Of a stretch of 46,238 nt of DNA, positions 3,389 to 17,921 are shown piece after piece. The stretch spans positions 1 through 46,238 of the forward strand of contig NZ_JNKW01000015.1 of the NCBI RefSeq assembly GCF_000702205.1, read 5' to 3'. The number at the start of each line of letters is the position of its first letter. Within the stretch, counting starts at the first letter, position 1. A model generated the notes under the pieces. That model had not been told where the DNA came from. It saw nothing but the letters and a program-made list of their open reading frames with translations, and did not search any database. This stretch comes from Lachnospira multipara LB2003. GTDB lineage: Bacteria > Bacillota > Clostridia > Lachnospirales > Lachnospiraceae. The position numbers and the translations under genes were made by a program.

Positions 3389-3432
3389 ATTGGATAGACT
3401 GTAAAGTTGAATTTAGGAATAGGAGATATTTG

Positions 3433-4170
3433 ATGAGGTTAGCTCTTTTAGATGATGATGAAAGCATACTTAAGGAAGTAAGACAAAGACTAGAATGCAT
3501 GACTGAAACAATTGAAACGGATTATTTTTCTACAAGTACATCACTTTTAAATACCATCAAAAAGAATGGCACAAATTACTATGATTTATTAATATTAGAT
3601 CACATAATGCCGGATATAAATGGCCTGGATTTGGCCCATATGTTAAGAGATGATGGATATACTGGATTGATTGCCTTTTTAACATGTGAAGATGGAATTA
3701 TTGATGATACATTTAGGGTGTTGCCATTTAGATTCCTAAGAAAACCAATTGATACAGATAGATTTGATGAAACTATATTATCTGCCATCAAAAAAATTAA
3801 TAAGAATAGGCTAATACAGGTTCCAATCTCATCCGCTGATTTTGAAATTGTGAAGATGAATGACATTCTATTGCTTGAAGGAGGTCACAGAAAAACTAAA
3901 ATAATAACAAAGGATAAGGATATAATTAGTACAAGGATTATGTCAGAATGGTTAAAACATTTTGAAAGCGAAGATATAGGATGTTTTGTAAGGGTTAGCA
4001 AAAGCTACGTTGTAAATCTAGAGCATGTAAAAAGTTACACAAAGGTTTACAGGGGAGGTTTTATTAGATTAGATATGGATAATTTAGAAGTTGAAGTGGG
4101 AAATTCTTATTGGAATAGATTTATTGAAAAGATGAATTTCTATAGCTTAAGCAATAAAGTTACCATATAA
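3433..4170 (+). CDS. LytTR-family response regulator
   Basis: Cytoplasmic DNA-binding response regulator. An N-terminal receiver domain (about 1-125) has the acidic pair D8/D9 and phospho-acceptor D56 in L-I-L-D-H-I-M-P-D, plus the conserved Lys in L-R-K-P. The C-terminal half (about 135-240) is a LytTR domain with F-V-R-V-S-K-S-Y-V-V-N-L. I start at ATG 3433, seven bases after GGAG; the in-frame TTG at 3430 is too close to the RBS. It is followed after 41 bases by its likely cognate kinase. The pair has the domain make-up of AgrA/AgrC and related peptide-sensing systems; its target genes are not evident from the sequence. Confidence 0.88.
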   Translation: MRLALLDDDESILKEVRQRLECMTETIETDYFSTSTSLLNTIKKNGTNYYDLLILDHIMPDINGLDLAHMLRDDGYTGLIAFLTCEDGIIDDTFRVLPFRFLRKPIDTDRFDETILSAIKKINKNRLIQVPISSADFEIVKMNDILLLEGGHRKTKIITKDKDIISTRIMSEWLKHFESEDIGCFVRVSKSYVVNLEHVKSYTKVYRGGFIRLDMDNLEVEVGNSYWNRFIEKMNFYSLSNKVTI

Positions 4171-4211
4171 AGTAGGCAGTAATGTTCTAACTAAAAAAGG
4201 GAGTTATATAT

Positions 4212-5537
4212 ATGTTAGATATGGTTTTAAAAATATTAGTTGAATCAAGTTTTTTGTGTTTGGAATACATTCAAACTTACCTAATTACGAAGGGGCTTTT
4301 TGACTTAAAATTAAGAAAAAAACACTTTCTTTCTTTGATAGCTTTGGGATTAATTGGCGTAATAAGTGCACTTTTCTTTGATGAGGTCACAATAGATGTT
4401 ATCCATATTTTAATTCCACCGATTTTTCTTATAGTAAATGTTTTGGATAAAAAAGACATAAAAAGGATACTTTTTTCTGCAATGATTTATAATGTATTAG
4501 ATACATTAGTAACTATTGTAATAAATTTTTTTGTACCGGCAATGCAAGGGGATGCAATAATTCAAACAATTAATGACATGTTATTTGAATTATGTATGAT
4601 GATTGTTGTTATGCTTTTTTATATCCTTGTTTGTAAAAAAAGAAATTCTCTTAAGGAAATTCATATGGGAAGATACCTTAGTTTCTATTCAATGATAGGT
4701 TTTGCAATTATGATAAATGCTTGTATAGCAGTCCTTTATTTTACAGATTACAAGATGGAATTAAATAAGATAATAGCAGTTCTTATTCTTTCAACAGCGA
4801 TAATATTAATTACCCTGATTCTTCTTACAATTAATGTTTTTCAAATTGATAAGCTACAAGATGATATTTCACTTTATAACAGAATGGTTTATAACCAGGT
4901 TGAGTATTATAAGGTATTAGAGGAAAAAGATAGGGCAACAAAGGCTTTTAGACATGATATAAGAAAGCATTTGTTTTGCATGAAGCACTTAAGTGATACT
5001 AATGATTATGAACAGTTAAATGAATATATTGGCGGCTTATGTGAAAACGTAACAGAGATTTCACCACTTATTAATACGGGTAATGGTCTAATATCTTCAA
5101 TTATTACAGAAGAAATTAGACAATATCCAAATCTTAAAATTAAATGTGTTGGACACTTACCTTCGGATATGGGAATATCAAATATCGATTTATGTACGAT
5201 TTTTTACAATCTGTTTCAAAATTCCTGTGAGGCAGGAGCAAAATTTGTTGAAGGTCTTACAAAGGAGAATCGAGAAAAAGATTTGAAAAAAATGGACTTC
5301 GATGTTTATGTAGAGATGTCAATTACTAATATGAATAAGATAATTACTATAAAAAATAAGAGAATAAATCCGCCAAAAAAGAATTTTAGAGGATTTATTT
5401 CATCTAAAAAGGAAAGTGGACATGGAATTGGAATGGTTAATGTCCTCTTTACCATAGATAAGATTAATGGATCGATTATTACATCAGATGATGGTTATTT
5501 ATATACAACTGAGGTAATAATACCTAATAATAATTAA
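4212..5537 (+). CDS. AgrC-like GHKL sensor histidine kinase
   Basis: Polytopic membrane sensor kinase. About six hydrophobic segments fill residues 1-212; a short coiled region follows, then the phospho-acceptor motif F-R-H-D-I-R-K-H with His248, then a GHKL ATPase domain with N-box L-F-Q-N-S-C-E-A-G and G-box G-H-G-I-G-M-V-N-V. This is the AgrC/ComD/quorum-sensor layout (HPK10 type), usually sensing a peptide. GGGAG lies before the ATG. It is followed 13 bases later by a gene for a 17-residue peptide. No AgrB-type protease or AgrD propeptide gene is nearby. Confidence 0.87.
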   Translation: MLDMVLKILVESSFLCLEYIQTYLITKGLFDLKLRKKHFLSLIALGLIGVISALFFDEVTIDVIHILIPPIFLIVNVLDKKDIKRILFSAMIYNVLDTLVTIVINFFVPAMQGDAIIQTINDMLFELCMMIVVMLFYILVCKKRNSLKEIHMGRYLSFYSMIGFAIMINACIAVLYFTDYKMELNKIIAVLILSTAIILITLILLTINVFQIDKLQDDISLYNRMVYNQVEYYKVLEEKDRATKAFRHDIRKHLFCMKHLSDTNDYEQLNEYIGGLCENVTEISPLINTGNGLISSIITEEIRQYPNLKIKCVGHLPSDMGISNIDLCTIFYNLFQNSCEAGAKFVEGLTKENREKDLKKMDFDVYVEMSITNMNKIITIKNKRINPPKKNFRGFISSKKESGHGIGMVNVLFTIDKINGSIITSDDGYLYTTEVIIPNNN

Positions 5538-7593: not shown

Positions 7594-8580
7594 TTAAAAA
7601 GAAATATCCACTTCACTTAAAAATCTCTTTTTTAATTCTATAATTATTTCATTTAATTCAGTGCTACCCATTTCTTTACATTTAAATGGAATAAAACCGC
7701 CTGCCATATTATCATGACCTCCGCCACTTCCTATTTGATTTAGGGCATTATTGGTTATTTGACCGGCACGGTAATTTGAATTACTTCTTGTGGATAATTT
7801 AACACCGTCGCTTTTTACAGAATAAATAACTGCAAGCTCTATACCATTGAGGGTTATAAGAAAGTCTGCAATATTGGCAATAAGTGCATCAGGGCAATTT
7901 TTTCCAGCATCAGCAAAACAAACGCTTTTATAAATATCTATACTTGAAATAGCAATGGAATAGGCCTTTAAATCGCTCATTTCCATGGTTGAACTATCAA
8001 GGTCATAAAGGATATTATTATCTGCAAGGGCATGAAGTTTATAGAACATATCCATATCTAAATCACTTACGCCACGTTTCATATCTGCTGTATCAACCTT
8101 AATTCCATAAAGAAGAGCAGTAGCCACATTCATTGGTATTTCTATATTATTCTCTACATAGTAAGATGCAATAATAGAAGCACAAGCACCAACATCTGGT
8201 CTAATATCCGAAAATTGATAAGTATCATCAACATAAATAGGATGGTGGTCAATACAAATAATTTCGTTACCATTCATAGTAACAATATTGGCATTACCGC
8301 GTTGTGCATCAACAATTATTATTTCATCATCCTGCTTTAATTCACTATTAGTGTCATATTCAATCACGTTAATTCCTAATTTTCTAACCATCTTAGATGT
8401 AACAGTCTTATCAATAGATCCTTTATAAATAATCTCGGCTGTAATACCCCTAATTCCAAGTAAGACAGAAAGAGCGTATGCACTAGCAATAGCATCAGGA
8501 TCAGGAAAATTGTGAGTTTGAATATATACTTTATTATTGTTTACCTTAGAAATAATTTTGTCCAAATTAGTCATTATCAT
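7594..8580 (-). CDS. nrnA-like: DHH-family phosphoesterase, NrnA-like
   Basis: Cytosolic metal-dependent phosphoesterase. It has the DHH-domain motifs F-P-D-P-D-A-I-A-S-A-Y, I-I-V-D-A-Q-R and C-I-D-H-H-P in the N-terminal half, and the DHHA1 signature G-S-G-G-G-H-D-N-M-A-G-G near the C-terminus. The 328-residue length and layout fit NrnA-type oligoribonuclease/pAp phosphatases. I start at ATG 8580, six bases after AGGAG; a second ATG lies two codons on. It stands alone, divergent from the symporter operon. Exact substrate (nanoRNA, pAp or a cyclic dinucleotide product) cannot be told from motifs alone. Confidence 0.85.
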   Translation of the reverse strand: MIMTNLDKIISKVNNNKVYIQTHNFPDPDAIASAYALSVLLGIRGITAEIIYKGSIDKTVTSKMVRKLGINVIEYDTNSELKQDDEIIIVDAQRGNANIVTMNGNEIICIDHHPIYVDDTYQFSDIRPDVGACASIIASYYVENNIEIPMNVATALLYGIKVDTADMKRGVSDLDMDMFYKLHALADNNILYDLDSSTMEMSDLKAYSIAISSIDIYKSVCFADAGKNCPDALIANIADFLITLNGIELAVIYSVKSDGVKLSTRSNSNYRAGQITNNALNQIGSGGGHDNMAGGFIPFKCKEMGSTELNEIIIELKKRFLSEVDISF

Positions 8581-8824: not shown

Positions 8825-10276
8825 ATGGATAATAAAGAAACAAATATAATTGAAAAAGAAAGAGCAAAAATGTGGCAAATAGCATTTTTTAGCTTAAATA
8901 ATACTTCTACAAATCTCTTCCTTGCTATGATGGGTTATGTCTCATATTATGCCAATGGCGTAGCAGGGCTTGGAGTTGTGCTTATTTCCTTTATAATTAC
9001 AGGAATGAGAATTTTTGATGGGGTTACAGACCCAATTATTGGCTATTTTATAGATAAGACCAATGGAAGGTTTGGTAAATTTAGACCATATATTTTTCTT
9101 GGATATTTATTTATGAGCATAAGTTCTTTGGTTTTATTTTTTACAACAGATCTAGTGCCAAGGGGGATAAGACCGATTTATTTTATAGTGGTTTATTCAA
9201 TTTATATCATTGGATATACCTTTCAAACTGCAGTTGTAAAATCCGGACAATCTGTAATCACAACGGATGTGAATCAAAGACCTTTTATAACATTTTTTGA
9301 TTCCACATTTATAATGTTAGCACATGGAGTTGTAGCTTTTTATGTATCTGTGTATTTAATTGGAAAATATAAAAGCTTTACAAGTAAGGCTCTTTTTTCT
9401 GAATTTGTAATTACAGTTGTTATAGTGTCAGGAATTTGTTCAATTTTAGCAATGATAGGAATATGGGAAAAGGATAGGCCAAAGTATTTTAGACTATCAC
9501 AGGATAAGAAGGTTAGGATACACTTTAAGGATTATTTTACAATTTTAAAGCATAATAAACCTATTAGAATGCTTGTAATTGCAGCAGCTTCTAATAAATT
9601 TGCCCAAATGGTTTATGGAAATGCAGTTGTTCCTGTTATGCTTTTTGGTATTTTAATGAAAAATTACCCATTGGCAGGCTTAATTGGCGTAATTATTGGA
9701 TTTCCTAATTTGGGAATAATTTATTTAGGAATTACTTTTGCCAAAAAACATGGTCAGAAAAATGCATTAATTTTTTCTACAATTTTGGCTATTTTTTTCC
9801 AAACAATTTTTATGCTATTAATGTTATTTACTGACTTAACTAAGGTATCACTTACTCATATCAATGTTATTACTGTAGTGTTTTTACTTGTATTTATGCT
9901 ATTAAATGGTGTAAAATCAATATCTAATAATATAGTAGTTCCTATGATTGCTGATTGTACGGATTATGAATACACAATCAGTGGTTTTTTTGTGCCAGGA
10001 ATTATGGGAGCGTTATTTTCTTTTGTTGATAAGACTTTTTCAGCATTAGCCACAGGATTTGTGGGACTTTGCTTGTCGTTTATTGGATTTAAGGAAGTTT
10101 TCCCACAGGTTGAAGATGCGTTAACGCCGCAATTAAAGGGCATGACGGTTTTTTTCTATTGTATAATTCCAATGATTGGATGGTTAATAACACTTTTTAT
10201 CATGCGCTACTATAAATTAGATAAAAAGACTATGCAGGGCTTATATAGGGAAAGACCAAACAAGGAAAACAGTTAA
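8825..10276 (+). CDS. GPH-family (MelB-like) sugar symporter
   Basis: A 483-residue polytopic membrane protein with about twelve hydrophobic segments. The early motif D-G-V-T-D-P-I-I-G-Y, followed by D-K-T-N-G-R-F-G-K-F-R-P-Y, is the signature of glycoside-pentoside-hexuronide:cation symporters within the MFS. It would import a sugar or glycoside with Na+ or H+. A mid-protein cytoplasmic loop carries I-W-E-K-D-R-P-K-Y-F, and D-C-T-D-Y-E lies later as in the family. It is first in an operon with a degenerate GH13 protein 16 bases downstream, which suggests an alpha-glucan-related substrate, but this is inference. The RBS is weak. Confidence 0.85.
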   Translation: MDNKETNIIEKERAKMWQIAFFSLNNTSTNLFLAMMGYVSYYANGVAGLGVVLISFIITGMRIFDGVTDPIIGYFIDKTNGRFGKFRPYIFLGYLFMSISSLVLFFTTDLVPRGIRPIYFIVVYSIYIIGYTFQTAVVKSGQSVITTDVNQRPFITFFDSTFIMLAHGVVAFYVSVYLIGKYKSFTSKALFSEFVITVVIVSGICSILAMIGIWEKDRPKYFRLSQDKKVRIHFKDYFTILKHNKPIRMLVIAAASNKFAQMVYGNAVVPVMLFGILMKNYPLAGLIGVIIGFPNLGIIYLGITFAKKHGQKNALIFSTILAIFFQTIFMLLMLFTDLTKVSLTHINVITVVFLLVFMLLNGVKSISNNIVVPMIADCTDYEYTISGFFVPGIMGALFSFVDKTFSALATGFVGLCLSFIGFKEVFPQVEDALTPQLKGMTVFFYCIIPMIGWLITLFIMRYYKLDKKTMQGLYRERPNKENS

Positions 10277-10292
10277 TATAAGGGAGATAAAG

Positions 10293-12155
10293 ATGCAGAT
10301 TAAAATAGGTAATCCTAATATAATGGGATGTAATGTAATAAATGGTGAATATAATTTTAGTATCTGTAGTGCGTCTAATAATGTGGTATTGTGCTTATAT
10401 AGTGAGAAGAAAAAGCATGCTAAATATAGAATTGTTCTAGATGAAGATAAGAGATTTGGAGATGTTTATTCAGTAAGCATTAGTGATGTTGACTTAACAA
10501 ATTTCTATTATGCTTACGAAATAGATAAGCATCCATATATAGATCCATACGCTAAAGAGATAACTGATTGTACCTGCTTTGGTAAGAAAAGCAGAGAAGA
10601 TGTATATTTATCACCAATTAGCGTGGCAGAGTTTGACTGGCAAGGTGATAAACCCCTTAATTTAGATTATAGTGATTGTATATTTTATAAGTTAAATGTT
10701 AGAGGATTTACAAAATCAAAGACTTCTAAGGTTAAGGAAAGAGGTACATTTAAAGGAATTATAGAAAAAATTCCATACCTTAAGGAATTAGGAATTACAA
10801 CATTAGAATTAATGCCAGCTTATGAATATGATGAAATTGGACGTTTTTCTCAATTAAAGGAAGATGGTATTTTATCAAGATATGGCGTGGACGCTAGATA
10901 TATAAATGGTGAAAAAACATGTGCTCCTAATTTTTGGGGATATACAAGAGGATTTTATTTTGCTCCAAAGGCAAGCTTTAGTTCAGTTGTAAGTGGCAAG
11001 GATTCTAATAAGGACTATAGTCTTGAATTTAAGGAAATGGTAAGGGAATTACATAAAGCTGGAATTGAAGTTTGTATGGAAATGTTTTTTGATAAGGAGA
11101 CAGTAAGTCTTTGCCTTGATTGTGTGAGATTCTGGGTAAGAGAGTATCACATTGATGGAGTGCATTTATATGGTGATGAAACAATTCTAAAGACAGTTGC
11201 AGCTGATCCATTTTTATCAAAAACAAAAATAATAACAATATTCTGGGATGGAAAAAAAGGGACATATAAACATATGGCAAATTATAATAATGATTTCCAG
11301 AATATTGCAAGACAGTTACTTAAAGGGGACGAAAACCAATTAATGGCATTTATGAATGCAAGTAAGAATAATCCTACTAATAGTGCTGTGATTAACTATA
11401 TTACTAATAATAACGGTTTCACACTTTATGATTTGGTAAGTTATGATAGAAAGCATAATGAACTTAATGGTGAGAATAATAGAGATGGCGAGAACTTTAA
11501 TTATAGCTGGAACTGCGGTGAAGAAGGCCAAACCAAAAAAAGAAAAATCATTGATTTAAGAGTTAAGCAGATAAAAAATGCCCTAACAATGGTTTTATTA
11601 TCATCAGGAACACCTTTAATTTTAAGTGGAGATGAATTTGGTAATTCTCAGGAAGGCAATAATAATCCATATTGCATAGATAGTGAGATTTCTTGGGTTA
11701 CATGGAAAGATAATGTTAATTCAAAGAAGATTTTTGAATGGACTAAGGAACTTATACATTTAAGAAAAAAATATAAGATATTACATCTATCCAAACCGCT
11801 TACAATGAGTGATGGCTTACAGGTAGGTTTCCCTGATTTATCATATCATGGAAGCAATGCCTGGTTTGCTCCAACAGAGAATTTTATAAGACATGTGGGA
11901 ATGATGTATTCTGCAAATCACGGAGAGGCAGGAGTTAATAAGCTTATATATGTGGCCTATAATATGCATTGGGAAGAACATGATTTAGCCCTTCCTAAGA
12001 TAGATGGTGGCAAGGGTTGGAGTATTTATCTTTGTTCAGCAGCTAAGAAAGAAAAAGCAGTTATTAGCGAAGATGGAAGAAGTGTAAAATTATCACCAAG
12101 ATCAGTTAGTATCTTGATAGGTGATTATAAGCCAGGAAAAGGAAAGAATAAATGA
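10293..12155 (+). CDS. GlgX/isoamylase-like GH13 protein, catalytic residues lost
   Basis: The 620-residue protein has the layout of glycogen debranching enzymes: an N-terminal CBM48-like domain (about 1-110), a GH13 barrel and a C-terminal beta domain. The GlgX-specific block G-E-N-N-R-D-G followed by N-Y-S-W-N-C-G, and L-S-G-D-E-F-G, are preserved. Every catalytic region is degenerate. Region I reads M-E-M-F-F-D-K instead of D-V-V-F-N-H; region II I-D-G-V-H-L-Y instead of V-D-G-F-R-F-D (nucleophile Asp replaced by Tyr293); region III has Ile316 where the acid Glu should be; region IV has N373-N374 for His-Asp. About 40-50 residues between regions I and II are also missing. The frame is intact, so it is probably a binding or regulatory pseudoenzyme. 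Confidence 0.85.
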   Translation: MQIKIGNPNIMGCNVINGEYNFSICSASNNVVLCLYSEKKKHAKYRIVLDEDKRFGDVYSVSISDVDLTNFYYAYEIDKHPYIDPYAKEITDCTCFGKKSREDVYLSPISVAEFDWQGDKPLNLDYSDCIFYKLNVRGFTKSKTSKVKERGTFKGIIEKIPYLKELGITTLELMPAYEYDEIGRFSQLKEDGILSRYGVDARYINGEKTCAPNFWGYTRGFYFAPKASFSSVVSGKDSNKDYSLEFKEMVRELHKAGIEVCMEMFFDKETVSLCLDCVRFWVREYHIDGVHLYGDETILKTVAADPFLSKTKIITIFWDGKKGTYKHMANYNNDFQNIARQLLKGDENQLMAFMNASKNNPTNSAVINYITNNNGFTLYDLVSYDRKHNELNGENNRDGENFNYSWNCGEEGQTKKRKIIDLRVKQIKNALTMVLLSSGTPLILSGDEFGNSQEGNNNPYCIDSEISWVTWKDNVNSKKIFEWTKELIHLRKKYKILHLSKPLTMSDGLQVGFPDLSYHGSNAWFAPTENFIRHVGMMYSANHGEAGVNKLIYVAYNMHWEEHDLALPKIDGGKGWSIYLCSAAKKEKAVISEDGRSVKLSPRSVSILIGDYKPGKGKNK

Positions 12156-13045
12156 ACATTAATAAATTAAAAGACGTAAAAGAAGAGTTTAAGGGATACA
12201 AGGAAATCCTTGATTCTGGAGATTTTGAAAAGGCATATGATATGCTTGATAAAATTCTAAAAAAAGTGGAAGATAGTTTGGATGAAAGAAGAGCAGCATA
12301 TGTTAATTCAGATGGAACTGTAAATTTAACTAAGGATGAGAAGGGCGATATTTATATGAGCCTTAATCATATAATGGAATATTATTTGTATGAGGTTTAT
12401 TTTGAACCAGATGCCGATGTAAAAACCCTTGATATTCCAATTGGCGAATATTATAGAACTTTTGGCGAACTATGCCAGAACATGGGAAAATATAAGGCAG
12501 CAAAGGATGCATATATGAAGGCTCTAAGCTGGAACCCTGTGGATTTAGATTCTTACCTTGGTTTAGCAGAAAGTTACAAGTATCAGAATATGATGAATAG
12601 ATATTTAGAAGTTACAAGACAGGCATATAGATATTGCTGTACTAGAGCTACTATGGCAAGATACTATAGAAATATGGCTTTTTATTATCTTTCAAACTAT
12701 AAGCCAGAGATTGCAAGGGATGCATATCAGTACGCTAATGTTTACTATCATACAGATAATGCAGACTCAGAATTAAAATATATTGAAAGCGCAATAAATG
12801 AAAAAACACCTGATATAGATATTAGACGTATTCAGAAAGTCTTTACAGAGGAAGGTATAGAGCCAGGTCCAGATTCTAAGACAATAGGAATTATTTATAG
12901 AGTTGGTGAACTTATGATGGAAGATAGGGAATATAAGCTTGCTAGGGACTGTTTCTCAATTTGCTATGATATTACAAGGGAAGCAGGCTTAGAAAAAATT
13001 TTAGATGAATTAGAAAAAGCGATAAAGGATAATGGTAATGAATAA
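12152..13045 (+). CDS. TPR-repeat protein of unknown function
   Basis: A soluble, mainly helical 297-residue protein with tetratricopeptide-like repeats; the clearest is at about 100-150 (G-E-L-C-Q-N-M-G-K-Y-K-A-A-K-D-A-Y-M-K-A-L), with others around residues 18-40 and 250-290. There is no signal peptide or enzyme motif. Its ATG overlaps the stop of the GH13-like gene (ATGA), so translation is coupled, and it overlaps the next gene at its 3' end. A scaffold or partner role for the GH13-like protein is inference from this coupling. Confidence 0.75.
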   Translation: MNINKLKDVKEEFKGYKEILDSGDFEKAYDMLDKILKKVEDSLDERRAAYVNSDGTVNLTKDEKGDIYMSLNHIMEYYLYEVYFEPDADVKTLDIPIGEYYRTFGELCQNMGKYKAAKDAYMKALSWNPVDLDSYLGLAESYKYQNMMNRYLEVTRQAYRYCCTRATMARYYRNMAFYYLSNYKPEIARDAYQYANVYYHTDNADSELKYIESAINEKTPDIDIRRIQKVFTEEGIEPGPDSKTIGIIYRVGELMMEDREYKLARDCFSICYDITREAGLEKILDELEKAIKDNGNE

Positions 13046-13667
13046 ATACGACGGCTTAATTTTTGATTTAGATGGAACAATGTGGGATTCGACAGAACCA
13101 ATAGTTGAGGCTTGGAACATTATTTTACAAAAACATCCTGAAATAAAAAGAGATCCAATTGTAAAATCTGACTTAACTGATTGCATGGGAAAGACAATGT
13201 ATACTATTGCAGCTATGCTATTTCCTAATGAAGAGGAGTCTGTAAGAAATGGACTTATGGATGAGCTTTGTTTATATGAGAATGAGTATTTAGCTAAAGT
13301 TGGTGGAAAGCTATATGATAAGCTTGAAACAACACTTAGTGAACTTTCAAAAAAATACACATTATATATTGTAAGTAATTGTCAGGATGGTTATATTGAG
13401 GCTTTTTTAAAGGCACATAACCTATCAGATTTATTTAAAGACACAGAATGTTGGGGAAGAACCTTTGTAACTAAGGGTGAGACTAACAAAATTCTAATTA
13501 AGAGAAATAATCTACAAAATCCAATTTATATTGGAGATACACAAGGTGATAAACAGTCAGCAATAGATGCAGGAATTGACTTTGTATTTGCAAGTTATGG
13601 CTTTGGAAATGTGGATGAATATACATACAAAATAGAAAAATTTAGTGATTTATTAGACATTTTATAA
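13038..13667 (+). CDS. HAD-family phosphatase
   Basis: A 209-residue HAD-like hydrolase. Motif I is D-L-D-G-T (about 8-12), motif II V-S-N, motif III a Lys in T-K-G-E-T-N-K, and motif IV I-G-D-T-Q-G-D. It is close to the beta-phosphoglucomutase/Gph branch, acting on a small phosphate ester in the cytosol. I start at ATG 13038, eight bases after AAAGGA; an in-frame ATG at 13032 is only two bases from that site. It overlaps the TPR gene and closes the operon. The context suggests a sugar phosphate substrate. Confidence 0.83.
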   Translation: MNKYDGLIFDLDGTMWDSTEPIVEAWNIILQKHPEIKRDPIVKSDLTDCMGKTMYTIAAMLFPNEEESVRNGLMDELCLYENEYLAKVGGKLYDKLETTLSELSKKYTLYIVSNCQDGYIEAFLKAHNLSDLFKDTECWGRTFVTKGETNKILIKRNNLQNPIYIGDTQGDKQSAIDAGIDFVFASYGFGNVDEYTYKIEKFSDLLDIL

Positions 13668-13700
13668 AGAAGAAACTATAAAGAAGGAATCTATAAAGAA

Positions 13701-13735
13701 GAAGGAATCTAACTTAAAACTAGTTAGATTCCTTC
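13701..13735. terminator. Strong bidirectional terminator
   Basis: GAAGGAATCTAACT (13701-13714) pairs perfectly with AGTTAGATTCCTTC (13722-13735). It separates the convergent HAD gene and the small membrane protein gene. Imperfect direct repeats of TATAAAGAAGGAATC lie just upstream. Confidence 0.85.
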
Positions 13736-13736
13736 T

Positions 13737-13967
13737 TCAAATTAGCGATTTAAGTGTTGTGAAAAGTTCTGGAATTGAATTATATATGTTTTGATAGAGC
13801 TTAATTACAGCACCTTCTGGTGAAAAAATATAATCAATGGCGCTAAAATCATTAAATACAAAACAATATATAATACCAATTATTATTACACAGGCAACAA
13901 TTTTGATTGCTAGTCTAATTAGTGTAACAACAAAACCAACAAAAGGAAGAGATCTTAAAACCCTCAT
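13737..13967 (-). CDS. Small membrane protein of unknown function
   Basis: A 76-residue protein with one long hydrophobic segment (about 8-43, rich in V, I, L), preceded by Arg residues, and an amphipathic C-terminal third. I do not recognise the family. It is encoded alone on the minus strand between two plus-strand units, with an RBS-like AGAGG upstream (complement of CCTCT) and its own terminator. The hydrophobic stretch could form one long or two short helices. Confidence 0.6.
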   Translation of the reverse strand: MRVLRSLPFVGFVVTLIRLAIKIVACVIIIGIIYCFVFNDFSAIDYIFSPEGAVIKLYQNIYNSIPELFTTLKSLI

Positions 13968-14079
13968 AAAAAACCTCTAAAGGTATCATTTGCCTCCCGT
14001 GATTGCCTTTCTATATGTAGTGTTCACAACTTTAATCTAACTTTATTTTACATCCAAAAAATGAAAAATAAAAGATTTA

Positions 14080-14107
14080 TTGTTATTTTTTTTATTTGTG
14101 ATAAGAT
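14080..14107 (+). promoter_or_regulatory. Possible promoter of the UPF0340 gene
   Basis: TTGTTA, 16 bases, TAAGAT, followed by an AAGGAGG site before the coding region. Confidence 0.45.
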
Positions 14108-14143
14108 ACTTTTTAGAATAAAAAAAGGAGGAAAGAACATTTT

Positions 14144-14731
14144 TTGTTCGAAGAAAAAATGGCAGCAGGAATATCAAATGAAAAATATAATCATATAGAT
14201 GAAATTAAAAATGAAGTAAGGGAAATTCTTGAGGATTTAATAGCCCAGGCAAAACCAATGGAAGGTGATGTATTAGTTGTTGGATGCTCATCAAGTGAGG
14301 TTAACGCTCATAAACTTGGTACTTTTTCTAGTGAAGAAATCGGACAGGCTCTTTTTGAAGAAATAAGTAAGGTGGCTAGTGAACATAAACTTTATGTGGC
14401 AGCCCAGTGTTGTGAACACTTAAATAGATGCTTATGTGTTGAAAGAGAGTTAGCTATAAAAAGAGGTCTTGAAATTGTCAGTGTAGTTCCAAAACTTAAG
14501 GCTGGTGGCTCATTTGCAACTGCAGCATATAAGAATATGGACAATCCTGTTATGGTAGAGACAATAAAGGCTGAACTTGGAATGGATATTGGCGATACTT
14601 TAATTGGTATGCATTTAAGAGCAGTAGCTGTTCCTGTTAGAACTAAGATTAACACAGTAGGTAATGCCCACGTAGTCTGCGCTAGAACAAGACCTAAGTA
14701 TATTGGTGGAGAAAGAGCAGAATATATTTAA
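14144..14731 (+). CDS. UPF0340 (YwlG/DUF436) family protein
   Basis: A 195-residue cytosolic protein. The pattern G-C-S-S-S-E-V (about 47-53), A-A-Q-C-C-E-H-L-N-R-C and the C-terminal C-A-R-T-R-P-K-Y-I-G-G-E-R-A-E are those of the UPF0340/TIGR01440 family (YwlG in Bacillus), whose biochemical role is unknown to me. The start is taken as TTG at 14144, twelve bases after AGGAGG; the next ATG (14159) is 27 bases away and would leave the RBS unused. It precedes the trp leader and has a separate transcript. Confidence 0.82.
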   Translation: MFEEKMAAGISNEKYNHIDEIKNEVREILEDLIAQAKPMEGDVLVVGCSSSEVNAHKLGTFSSEEIGQALFEEISKVASEHKLYVAAQCCEHLNRCLCVERELAIKRGLEIVSVVPKLKAGGSFATAAYKNMDNPVMVETIKAELGMDIGDTLIGMHLRAVAVPVRTKINTVGNAHVVCARTRPKYIGGERAEYI

Positions 14732-14739
14732 ATTTTTGC

Positions 14740-14768
14740 TTGACTAAAGCGTTAAAGCGTGATAGTAT
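14740..14768 (+). promoter_or_regulatory. trp operon promoter with tandem octamer in the spacer
   Basis: TTGACT, 17 bases, TAGTAT. The spacer contains TAAAGCGT twice in direct tandem. The T-box leader starts about 25 bases later. Confidence 0.65.
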
Positions 14769-14790
14769 ATCAATAATTTAATAAATAAAA

Positions 14791-15099
14791 AGTCGATGAA
14801 CAGAAGTAGTACTTATTTGGAAGGTACATCACAGAGAGTCAGGGGCGGTGGAATCCTGATATGGAAATCTATAAGGAATGGATCTGGGAGATGCTTTGGT
14901 GAAATTTTTAGTAGCTAAAGACGTGACCTCACGTTACAGAGGAAGGATATTATATGTATCTGATAAGAGTGATTTATAAGTGGCTAATTTTATAAATTGG
15001 TCACTTTTTTTATTAGAGAATTCTAATAATGAATCAAAAAAAGGGTGGCACCACGATAATTCGTCCCTGGTAGGCTTTTAGCCTATCAGGGACTTTTTT
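14791..15099 (+). promoter_or_regulatory. T-box leader (tryptophan) with terminator
   Basis: Stem I begins near AGAGAGTCAGGGG and has the distal GGTGGAA. A UGG (Trp) triplet stands at 14879-14881 in the specifier region (GGAATGGATC). The T-box sequence AGGGTGGCACCACG is at 15042-15055. The terminator GTCCCTGGTAGGC/GCCTATCAGGGAC with a T-run is at 15063-15099. Uncharged tRNA-Trp should favour read-through into trpE. Confidence 0.93.
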
Positions 15100-15115
15100 C
15101 ATGAAAGGAAGGAAA

Positions 15116-16558
15116 ATGAAGAAGATTTATAAGGTTTATAAGAAAACAGTAAGTGTTGTTGATGAATCACCAATTAGCCTATTTAACGGGATTTTTAAAA
15201 ATAAAATAGGCTTCTTACTTGAGAGTAAGGAAAGAAACGAAGGACAATTTAGCATTATGGGGGTTGATCCTGTAGAACTTATTAGCTCTAATGATGAGGG
15301 AATTCTAATAAAAAGACTAGGTAAAACTGGCAAATATGAATCTAGTGAAGTAAGAAAGGGAAATCCAAAGGATTGCCTAAGGGATTACATGTCAGAATTT
15401 GAAATTGAAAAGGTAGACTATAATCTTAGCTTTTTAGGAGGATTTACAGGTTCCTTTGGATATGATTTTGCAGGCTTTGTAGAAAAATTACCTCATAGAA
15501 AAAAGAATACTGATACTGATATTTCACCAATTCAGTTAATGCTTATTTTAAAGTTTATTGTAATTGATCATGAAGCAGGAACCTTAAGTGCAGTAATTCT
15601 TTATGAGGATGATAAAGATGAGGCTGCCCTAAAAAAAGAGGCTAATGAACTTATAGACTTAGCAAGAGCTGGGGCTATTAAAGAAGAGGATAATAAGAAT
15701 GAATGTGAATTAGACCTAGATGGGGTGATTGTAGAAAAGTCAGATAGCCTAGAGTCTTATACAAGAAAAGTTAATAAGATTAAGGATTATGTAAAAAAAG
15801 GACATATATTCCAAACAGTTTTATCTCAGAAATGGACTATAGAGACTAAGAAGTCTGGATTTGATCTATATAAGTCCCTTAGACAGACTAATCCATCACC
15901 ATATCTTTATTATTACAATTTTGGGGATTTTGAAATCATTGGAAGTTCACCTGAATTGTTAGTTAAAAAAATCGATGACACAATTACAACCTGTCCTATA
16001 GCAGGAACAAGAAAAAGAGGAAAAACCAAAATAGAAGATCATGAGTTGGAAATGGAATTGTTGTCTGATGAAAAGGAAAGGGCAGAACATGTAATGCTTG
16101 TGGACCTAGCAAGAAATGATATGGGAAGAGTAAGTAAGATAGGCAGTGTAAGGGTAAGTCAGTTTATGAAGGTACAAAGGTATTCCCAGGTGATGCACTT
16201 GGTTTCTTTAGTTGAGGGTAGGAAAGAAAAAGACATAAATCCAATTGATTTAGTTGCCACATTTTTACCCGCAGGAACCTTATCAGGTGCACCAAAGATT
16301 CGTGCCATGGAAATAATAGATGAGCTAGAAGATGTAAATAGAGGACTATATGGCGGTGCCACAGGCTTTATAAGTTTTGATGGTAATGTGAATTTCTGTA
16401 TAACCATAAGAACTATGATAAAGACAGGAAATTTAGTTTTTCTACAGGCAGGCGCAGGAATTGTAGCAGATTCAATTCCAGAAAATGAGTATAAGGAATG
16501 TAAGAATAAAGTAATGGCTTTGGCTAAGACATTAGTAAAGGAGGAAGATTTAAAATGA
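15116..16558 (+). CDS. trpE: Anthranilate synthase component I
   Basis: Converts chorismate to anthranilate with ammonia from TrpG; first step of tryptophan synthesis. Family motifs: L-L-E-S in the N-terminal domain (the tryptophan feedback site), P-I-A-G-T-R-K-R-G, L-V-D-L-A-R-N-D, and A-G-T-L-S-G-A-P-K. The length (about 480 residues) is normal. I start at ATG 15116, behind AAGGAAGG; an in-frame ATG at 15101 lies at the base of the terminator and lacks an RBS. It overlaps trpG by four bases. Confidence 0.96.
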   Translation: MKKIYKVYKKTVSVVDESPISLFNGIFKNKIGFLLESKERNEGQFSIMGVDPVELISSNDEGILIKRLGKTGKYESSEVRKGNPKDCLRDYMSEFEIEKVDYNLSFLGGFTGSFGYDFAGFVEKLPHRKKNTDTDISPIQLMLILKFIVIDHEAGTLSAVILYEDDKDEAALKKEANELIDLARAGAIKEEDNKNECELDLDGVIVEKSDSLESYTRKVNKIKDYVKKGHIFQTVLSQKWTIETKKSGFDLYKSLRQTNPSPYLYYYNFGDFEIIGSSPELLVKKIDDTITTCPIAGTRKRGKTKIEDHELEMELLSDEKERAEHVMLVDLARNDMGRVSKIGSVRVSQFMKVQRYSQVMHLVSLVEGRKEKDINPIDLVATFLPAGTLSGAPKIRAMEIIDELEDVNRGLYGGATGFISFDGNVNFCITIRTMIKTGNLVFLQAGAGIVADSIPENEYKECKNKVMALAKTLVKEEDLK

Positions 16559-17127
16559 TTCTTTTAATTGATAACTATGATTCTTTTACATATAACCTAT
16601 ATCAATTTATAGGGATTTTTGAAAGTAATATTAAGGTGTATAGAAATGACGAGATAACTATTGAACAAATAGAAAAATTAAATCCTGATGCTATTGTAAT
16701 TAGCCCAGGACCTAAGGGACCAAAGGAAGCTGGAATATGTGTTGAAGTAATTAGACATTTTGCAAAGACAAAACCAATACTTGGAATTTGTCTTGGACAT
16801 CAGTGCATAGGAGAGGCTTTTGGGGGCGAAATAGTTGCAGCTAAAACTATAATGCATGGTAAGCAATCCACAATAACTACAAATGACAGTAGATTATTTA
16901 GAGGTTTAAAGAAGGAATTTAAGGTAGCTAGATATCATTCTCTTGCTATAAAAAAAGAGACAATGCCAAAGGATTTAGAAGTAACAGCCCTTTCAGAGGA
17001 TGGCGAGGTAATGTCTGTTAAATTAAAGAACTCTAGAGTGTATGGAGTTCAGTTCCATCCAGAGTCCATTTATACAGAATATGGTAAAAAAATTATAGAA
17101 AATTTTCTTATGGAGGCAAATATATGA
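16555..17127 (+). CDS. trpG: Anthranilate synthase glutamine amidotransferase
   Basis: Class I glutamine amidotransferase subunit that hydrolyses glutamine and passes ammonia to TrpE. The catalytic triad is visible: Cys79 in G-I-C-L-G-H-Q, and His168/Glu170 in Q-F-H-P-E-S. At 190 residues it is a free-standing TrpG, with no fused anthranilate phosphoribosyltransferase (TrpD) domain. AGGAGG inside trpE serves as RBS. Start and stop overlap with the neighbours (ATGA), indicating coupled translation. Confidence 0.95.
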   Translation: MILLIDNYDSFTYNLYQFIGIFESNIKVYRNDEITIEQIEKLNPDAIVISPGPKGPKEAGICVEVIRHFAKTKPILGICLGHQCIGEAFGGEIVAAKTIMHGKQSTITTNDSRLFRGLKKEFKVARYHSLAIKKETMPKDLEVTALSEDGEVMSVKLKNSRVYGVQFHPESIYTEYGKKIIENFLMEANI

Positions 17128-17921
17128 TTCTAGATAAAATTGTAGAGGATAAAAAAGAAAGATTAGAAGCAGATAAAAGGGCAGTTCCTCTTGAATCCTT
17201 AAAGGAGGCTGTTAAAAAAATAAAGGAAGATAAGCATGATTTTTACAAGGCCCTATCAGGCAATGATTTGTCTGTTATTGCAGAATTTAAGAATGCCTCA
17301 CCTAGTCATGGAAATATGGATAACAAATTAGACTTAGATAAAAGAATAAGTCAGTATAGCAAATGTGCCAATGCAATTTCTTGCTTAACAGAAGAAAAAC
17401 ACTTTAAAGGTAGCAAGGAATATCTTATGAGTATTAGAAAAATCACAGATTTACCAATACTTAGAAAGGATTTTATTATTGATCCATATCAAGTTTATGA
17501 AGCTAAGCTAATAGGGGCAGATGCTATATTGCTAATAGCGGCAATTCTTGATGACAGGAAATTTAAGGAGCTTTATGACTTAGCGGTAAGCTTAAATTTA
17601 GATGTGCTATGCGAGGTTCATACATTAGATGAATTAAAGCGAATGCTTAATTTAGGCGTGAAGATAATTGGTATAAATAATCGTAACTTATATGATTTTA
17701 CTATAGATCTAGAGACTACGATTAAACTATCAGAATATGCTTTAGATAAGAAAAGTAAAGATACTCTTCTTGTAACAGAAAGTGGAATTACAAAGTTATC
17801 TGATATTAAGCATTTAAGAAAGTCAAAGGTAAATGCCCTTTTAGTGGGAACGGTTCTTATGGAATCAGATAATCCAGAGGGGCTTATAACTGATTTTAAG
17901 GAGGAGTTTAGGGGTGAATAG
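17124..17921 (+). CDS. trpC: Indole-3-glycerol phosphate synthase
   Basis: TIM-barrel enzyme that closes the indole ring from CdRP. Motifs: I-A-E-F-K-N-A-S-P-S-H-G near residue 51, L-R-K-D-F-I-I-D at about 112, G-I-N-N-R-N-L near 190, and a C-terminal V-T-E-S-G-I. Length (265) is normal. It follows trpG with a four-base overlap; no trpD lies between them, although TrpD makes the precursor of its substrate. Confidence 0.95.
   Translation: MILDKIVEDKKERLEADKRAVPLESLKEAVKKIKEDKHDFYKALSGNDLSVIAEFKNASPSHGNMDNKLDLDKRISQYSKCANAISCLTEEKHFKGSKEYLMSIRKITDLPILRKDFIIDPYQVYEAKLIGADAILLIAAILDDRKFKELYDLAVSLNLDVLCEVHTLDELKRMLNLGVKIIGINNRNLYDFTIDLETTIKLSEYALDKKSKDTLLVTESGITKLSDIKHLRKSKVNALLVGTVLMESDNPEGLITDFKEEFRGE

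Follow-up and report, generated by a model that had tools for sequence, protein, structure and literature searches.

Glycoside hydrolase family 13 (GH13) is already known to contain pseudoenzymes, namely the plant isoamylase ISA2 and the amino-acid transporter heavy chains 4F2hc and rBAT (SLC3) (PMC8537225). ISA2 is reported to be a non-catalytic GH13_11 paralogue that forms a complex with ISA1 and makes it more active (PMC12892837, PMC12510319); its nucleophile is always lost, it is under selection across its lineage, and it keeps the Trp pair of SBS1 and has lost SBS2. The selective retention of this dead isoamylase is stated there as not understood. For maize ISA1, debranching activity is reported to be undetectable in mutants of R504, N561, W578 and N628, and the starch content of these mutants differs among themselves and from the null, which the authors take to reveal a function beyond catalysis that is linked to glucan binding (PMC12510319). 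A literature search at the title and abstract level, with few subscription papers among those covered, found no description of a non-catalytic bacterial GlgX, and the available text of a 2024 review makes no mention of a family-wide bacterial GlgX pseudoenzyme or of Lachnospiraceae (PMC11046441).

Here we analyzed a window of 46,238 nucleotides from Lachnospira multipara LB2003 (contig NZ_JNKW01000015.1), in which an initial annotation had described a GlgX-like GH13 protein with all catalytic residues replaced. This protein, referred to here as pseudo-GlgX, resembles GlgX (CAZy GH13_11; TIGR02100) in its fold and domain order, border lobe, beta-8 loop and distal sugar contacts, but differs from active GlgX in lacking the catalytic and -1 polar residues and domain B. 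It is comparable to ISA2 as a non-catalytic GH13_11 paralogue without a nucleophile, whereas the loss of domain B and the lack of any GlgX partner seen in the genus set it apart. The extra N-terminal beta-sandwich domain of ISA2 is also absent, as residue 2 of the pseudo-GlgX model already aligns with the N-domain of ISA1. Moreover, the family profile scored active ISA1 at 404 bits, TreX/GlgX at 375 bits and ISA2 at 214 bits. Since the profile is nearer to ISA1 and TreX/GlgX than to ISA2, the catalytic loss was probably independent of that in plants. The barrel of 4F2hc and rBAT is likewise non-catalytic, and 4F2hc is also reported to lack domain B, but these proteins are closer to oligo-1,6-glucosidases and alpha-glucosidases, and they are membrane-anchored and extracellular in animals (PMC8537225). 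The GlgX of Streptomyces venezuelae, which has the same fold, is reported to be a signal receptor regulated by c-di-GMP (PMC9530166). However, no ExR(x6)R motif occurs within residues 1-90 of the window protein, a pattern search found it in 2 of 101 relatives, and a c-di-GMP receptor of this kind was rejected.

Pseudo-GlgX has an intact reading frame and an isoamylase fold

The pseudo-GlgX gene (10293..12155, + strand) encodes a 620-aa protein and was assigned from its open reading frame, HMM matches, alignment, AlphaFold2 model and fold match. As the initial annotation had held, the frame is unbroken, running from the ATG at 10293 to a stop codon ending at 12155, with a plausible ribosome-binding site upstream. 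The source genome comprises 2.58 Mb in 21 contigs, and a PLSDB search for plasmid carriage gave no match. The proposed debranching-enzyme scaffold was borne out as well. Pseudo-GlgX matched TIGR02100 with 307 bits, which does not reach the curated cut-off of 640.9, and the Pfam Alpha-amylase model with 37 bits, and BLASTP aligned it with E. coli GlgX at 29% identity over 597 columns (E 7e-66). The AlphaFold2 model (pTM 0.88), a structure prediction being one of the checks proposed earlier, has ISA1 and GlgX as its closest solved structures and displays the isoamylase fold, with an N-terminal beta domain, a barrel lacking domain B and a C-terminal beta domain. The pLDDT falls below 50 at loops 383-411 and 455-464. 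When an active GlgX was modelled as a control with the same alignment depth, the lobe was also weak (470-475 and 486-492) and the beta-8 loop was not; because of this weakness in the control lobe, the reading of the low-confidence conserved loops as a partner-binding loop was dropped. Hydropathy revealed no membrane-spanning segment in pseudo-GlgX, the highest 19-residue Kyte-Doolittle mean being 1.19, and the usual threshold for a membrane segment is about 1.6.

Catalytic residues and two loops were lost together

Alignment with E. coli GlgX confirmed every replacement claimed by the initial annotation. In region I, N265-H266 correspond to D267-K268 (codons 267-269, 11091..11099, + strand), followed by the deletion of domain B. 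In region II, the former R-x-D is now H291, L292 and Y293 (codons 291-293, 11163..11171, + strand), with the nucleophile D336 replaced by Y293 and R334 by H291, so the region II Arg is gone too. The acid/base E371 is replaced by I316 (codon 316, 11238..11240, + strand), and the region IV pair H442-D443 by N373-N374 (codons 373-374, 11409..11414, + strand). The alignment is gapless through regions II and IV. The deletion claimed between regions I and II leaves 21 residues in pseudo-GlgX versus 66 in E. coli GlgX, where the loop forms domain B, and a second deletion, which had escaped the annotation and follows region II, leaves 23 residues versus 35 between regions II and III.

We then compared 130 aligned proteins of both kinds, of which 29 have both the nucleophile and the acid/base residue, 18 have a Glu at the acid/base column only and 83 have neither; none has the Asp nucleophile alone. 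Among the 101 non-active proteins, which include the window copy and its near-copies, the D336 equivalent is kept in none, and the His and Asp of region IV are both kept in eight. Both deletions are present in all 101 non-active proteins (21-22 and 22-23 residues) but in none of the 29 active-type proteins (66-67 and 35-37 residues). The pattern of nucleophile and deletions across the 130 proteins indicates that the loss of these residues is not due to chance. These alignments demonstrate, at the level of sequence, that the catalytic residues disappeared together with two loops from the -1 side of the cleft.

Pseudo-GlgX forms an old clade under purifying selection

Matches to pseudo-GlgX were detected in all 22 genomes of the genus, the other 21 showing 52-76% identity apart from one short fragment. 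In the family, 247 of 298 genomes have a match and 232 carry the pseudo type, as defined by score (best E ≤1e-127) and not by reading of the sequences; G268 (2e-125) and G145 (2e-113) are ambiguous and lie outside the 232. Profile A1, built from 26 members, matched 33 Lachnospiraceae genomes over the full length with scores of 514 bits or more. It gave no such match in 196 sampled genomes from the other families of the order, 36 of which have split or partial matches of at most 334 bits. In a tree of 126 rows, from which L011, L029, L030 and L107 were omitted, a single branch (SH-aLRT 100, by a quick method) separates the 28 active proteins from the 98 non-active ones. L031 is a fragment of the broken gene that also gave L030 and was kept out of the alignment; L034 and L060 are one gene, and the L060 and L159 loci are one region. 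The initial annotation had implied a local event. Instead, the loss is one old event common to a family-wide clade. Pseudo-GlgX belongs to an old clade of non-catalytic GlgX/isoamylase homologues that is widespread in Lachnospiraceae.

The dN/dS comparison of orthologues proposed earlier spoke against neutral decay. Pairwise dN/dS (NG86) was 0.05-0.12 in ten of 11 pairs and saturated in one; the three closest pairs (dS 0.11-0.20) gave 0.070-0.116, and the values of five other pairs are rough, with dS above 1. Among the 150 places listed, six have one stop inside the match, and the two of these that were examined, L054 and L057, are open over 673 and 658 aa, respectively. One or two stops occur inside the profile match in about one third of the listed family matches, and in G147, G045 and G002 a shorter match is stop-free, so their stops lie at the match ends. 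These data show, on codon comparisons, that the reading frame is under purifying selection. The reading that nothing new is present, the gene being either a pseudogene in decay or an active enzyme that was misaligned, therefore has next to no probability: one broken copy in the incomplete genome G020 fits decay, but the low dN/dS, the same deletions in every relative, the carriage by 232 of 298 genomes and the gapless alignment through regions II and IV argue against it, and decay or frameshift was rejected on selection, spread and shared deletions. The earlier argument that a catalytic loss without decay implies a new role is well supported on these grounds. The G020 copy itself (C125:1949-3728; L030 and L031; genome 72% complete) lies in two frames, reflecting either a sequencing error or a true break.

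This distribution bears on how glycogen pathways are called from genomes. A published gut survey called glycogen enzymes from BLASTP hits with 20% identity across half of the length (PMC10395257). Pseudo-GlgX passes this threshold against E. coli GlgX, and Lachnospiraceae genomes may therefore be credited with a debranching enzyme that they lack.

The opposite wall of the cleft is retained

Two loops on the other side of the cleft have been retained, namely the border lobe (codons 376-412, 11418..11528, + strand; N389, E394 and W406), located by alignment and by mapping from maize ISA1 (PMC12510319), and the beta-8 loop (codons 446-471, 11628..11705, + strand), located by alignment and carrying GNNN (N456-N458) and Y460. 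Conservation is 0.80 in the pseudo versus 0.81 in the active proteins for the border lobe and 0.77 versus 0.85 for the beta-8 loop, whereas the mean over regions I-III is 0.48 versus 0.82. Residues were counted in 94 pseudo and 28 active proteins, with near-copies and partial or misaligned rows (L011, L014, L024, L027, L029, L030, L034 and L107) omitted. A set of 12 residues, made up of R340 and 11 positions within the border-lobe and beta-8 loops and picked because they looked conserved, is kept in full in 81 of the 94 pseudo proteins, and of five catalytic or -1 residues at most two are kept in any of them.

Sites described for known enzymes follow the same division. The non-catalytic sugar contacts W222, Y224, E470, N534 and Y536 of S. 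venezuelae GlgX (PMC9530166), mapped with a numbering offset of 3, correspond to W215, Y217, E394, N458 and Y460, which are kept in 94, 83 (the other 11 having Phe), 93, 94 and 93 of the 94 pseudo proteins, respectively, while its H271, D342, E378, H449 and D450 are kept in 1, 0, 18, 28 and 12. Its further sugar contact R212 falls in a variable loop of the alignment, and the W380 position is Trp in just 43 of 94. Similarly, R504, N561, W578 and N628 of maize ISA1 correspond to R340 (92/94), N389 (94/94), W406 (89/94) and N456 (94/94); the mapping was made through a rice chain offset, and identity at all four sites supports it. W578 is described as a glucan contact of the secondary site SBS2, and pseudo-GlgX thus keeps SBS2 and border-lobe residues that ISA2 is reported to lack (PMC12510319). 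Judged from the alignments, the opposite cleft wall, comprising the border lobe, the beta-8 loop and the distal sugar contacts, is kept nearly at the level of the active enzymes. As the border lobe of ISA1 is reported to be required for catalysis itself (PMC12510319) and the 12 residues were chosen as conserved, the retained block could serve folding instead.

We also considered whether the barrel has been reused as a new enzyme with another active-site set, for example H-x-D-G-x-H (H286, D288, G289 and H291), which appears very unlikely. H286, D288 and G289 do not vary among the 26 A1 rows, and H291, formerly Arg, is His in 69 of 94 proteins. However, the D-G and mostly the His are conserved in active GlgX too and therefore look structural, H291 is not universal, and the former nucleophile position holds N, Y, V, M, I and others. 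Moreover, only 16 positions combine specificity to the pseudo proteins with a conservation of 75% or more, and about half of these are conservative changes.

Since the cutting site is lost but the sugar contacts are kept in genes widespread in the family, pseudo-GlgX probably binds sugar chains and serves another purpose, and is not a failing gene. We favor, with some confidence, a non-catalytic member of the GlgX clade that binds alpha-glucan without cutting it and acts as a scaffold or sensor. The isoamylase-like fold would leave the cleft open, and alpha-1,4/1,6-glucan chains, either glycogen or maltodextrin, would be bound uncut in the cytosol at the lobe and the distal cleft, with the protein contributing to glycogen/maltodextrin metabolism as a scaffold that binds them or as a sensor. 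The glycan sensing suggested by the initial annotation thus gains indirect support from the retained contacts, with binding itself predicted. The case of ISA2 lends support, by analogy, to the notion that an inactive isoamylase may act through glucan binding and complex formation.

Glycogen enzymes in genomes carrying pseudo-GlgX

The other suggestion of the initial annotation, an allosteric partner of GlgX, fared less well. An active-GlgX motif was found in 110 of the 298 family genomes, with likely false hits in G147 and G273, likely misses in G130 and G178, and hits in 2 of 298 genomes in the backward control. Among the 232 carriers of pseudo-GlgX, the motif is present in 100 and absent in 132, and 110 have neither the motif nor a second match. 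In the genus, none of the 22 genomes has the motif and none has a second match. With no active GlgX seen in the genus and 132 of 232 carriers lacking the motif, the GlgX-partner reading is disfavored, the ISA1-ISA2 mode is not simply transferable, and the role would be played in the genus without an active GlgX.

The source genome contains an intact GlgB and a glycogen synthase (GlgA). GlgA is present in 294 of the 298 family genomes, so its co-occurrence says little and was set aside as uninformative. The PF00128 (GH13) hits of the source genome included neither a canonical GlgX nor a type I pullulanase. Two GH13 proteins have cyclomaltodextrinase/maltodextrin glucosidase as their best models, below cut-off, and one such protein of 704 aa (L003) is a candidate debranching enzyme on sequence similarity.

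Linkage to glycogen genes was sparse. Within eight open reading frames of pseudo-GlgX, a homologue of an E. coli-type Glg protein occurs in four of 93 loci and is absent in 89: GlgP at +5 in L158, GlgB at -5 in L095 and at -4 in L099, and a GlgB-like gene at +1 in L088. In this last locus, from a bin titled Oribacterium (10004-17657), pseudo-GlgX is followed by the GlgB-like gene and then by a 4-alpha-glucanotransferase; the GlgB-like protein has a long C-terminal extension and T, D and R in place of the nucleophile, acid/base and second Asp. Two dead glycogen enzymes lie next to each other in L088. The four Glg-linked loci give modest support for placing pseudo-GlgX in glycogen/maltodextrin metabolism.

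A broader version of the partner idea, in which pseudo-GlgX is the regulatory subunit of an active GH13 enzyme (GlgX, or else GlgB or another GH13 protein) as ISA2 is of ISA1, is unlikely. The precedent of ISA2 speaks for it, as do the motif in 100 of 232 carriers, at least two of which (G147 and G273) are likely false, and the GlgB-like gene directly downstream of pseudo-GlgX in L088 and GlgB four to five reading frames upstream in L095 and L099. However, the motif and second matches are missing throughout the genus, 132 carriers lack the motif and 110 of these also lack a second match, GH13 linkage is confined to 3 of 93 neighbourhoods, and the GlgB-like neighbor in L088 itself has no nucleophile.

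A second GlgB-like protein is encoded in addition to the intact GlgB in the source genome (G000:C6:62128-64575, + strand; L007/L198; 816 aa), outside the window, and by eye it has a C-terminal coiled coil. Matches to it were found in all 22 genomes of the genus. In all 19 aligned copies the region I His is Tyr or Phe, and the other catalytic losses vary. Outside the genus, the seven catalytic residues are all intact in 25 of the 30 best GlgB-like loci found across 100 sampled family genomes, and separate losses occur in L088, L212, L224 and L225. A general pairing of pseudo-GlgX with a dead GlgB is therefore unsupported, as most of these best loci are catalytically complete.

Taking up the preferred reading of a glucan-binding scaffold or sensor, we tentatively raise a bolder possibility, which we consider doubtful as a whole: that Lachnospiraceae, once and independently of plants, invented a non-catalytic isoamylase that shapes or senses stored glycogen, a counterpart of ISA2 without an active isoamylase, and that in some lineages, namely the genus of the window and L088 with its adjacent gene, it was joined by a second dead enzyme, a GlgB that has degenerated and bears a long C-terminal extension, the two together coating glycogen without enzymatic activity. 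Pseudo-GlgX is a second, apparently independent dead isoamylase, this time in bacteria, and in some genera there is no visible active partner to confound its study.

Gene neighbourhood of pseudo-GlgX

In the window, a GPH-type (MelB-like) MFS sugar symporter gene (8825..10276, + strand) ends 16 bases upstream of pseudo-GlgX. A TPR protein gene (12152..13045, + strand) overlaps the pseudo-GlgX stop by 4 bases with its start, and a HAD-family hydrolase gene (13032..13667, + strand) overlaps the TPR gene by 14 bases. These neighbors were identified from open reading frames and HMM matches, and together with pseudo-GlgX they form a probable operon in the genus. Across the 93 loci, in which those of close relatives are not independent, the symporter family is found at -1 in 15 (the genus and one other genus), the TPR protein at +1 to +3 in 21 and the HAD hydrolase at +2 or +3 in 19. 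In other clades, the neighbors are DUF5662 (29/93) and TraX (16/93), often overlapping the stop codon. In an earlier clustering, the DUF5662 and TraX clusters were found at 17 and 9 of 40 pseudo loci, respectively, versus none of 28 active-GlgX loci. As the neighbors differ by clade (GPH-TPR-HAD versus DUF5662/TraX), they were rejected as a guide to function. TraX (PF05857) and DUF5662 (PF18907) lie downstream of pseudo-GlgX in diverse Lachnospiraceae (L075, L097, L098, L105, L108 and L129).

The symporter raises the alternative that pseudo-GlgX is a protein-binding scaffold blind to glucan, for example an accessory subunit that serves the adjacent sugar transporter much as 4F2hc and rBAT serve theirs; we regard this as quite unlikely. 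The gene lies directly behind the symporter gene in the 15 loci mentioned, and 4F2hc offers a GH13-like precedent for non-catalytic use, also without domain B (PMC8537225). However, the neighbors elsewhere among the 93 loci are DUF5662, TraX or others, conservation is highest in the sugar-contact lobe, and hydropathy gives no membrane segment.

Two further features were observed in the window. A 328-aa DHH/DHHA1 phosphoesterase-like protein is encoded at 7594-8580 (- strand) and scores below cut-off to the Mn-pyrophosphatase and NrnA models. At 3430-5537 (+ strand), a LytTR response regulator is followed by a GHKL-domain sensor kinase, a pair that we take to be Agr-like.
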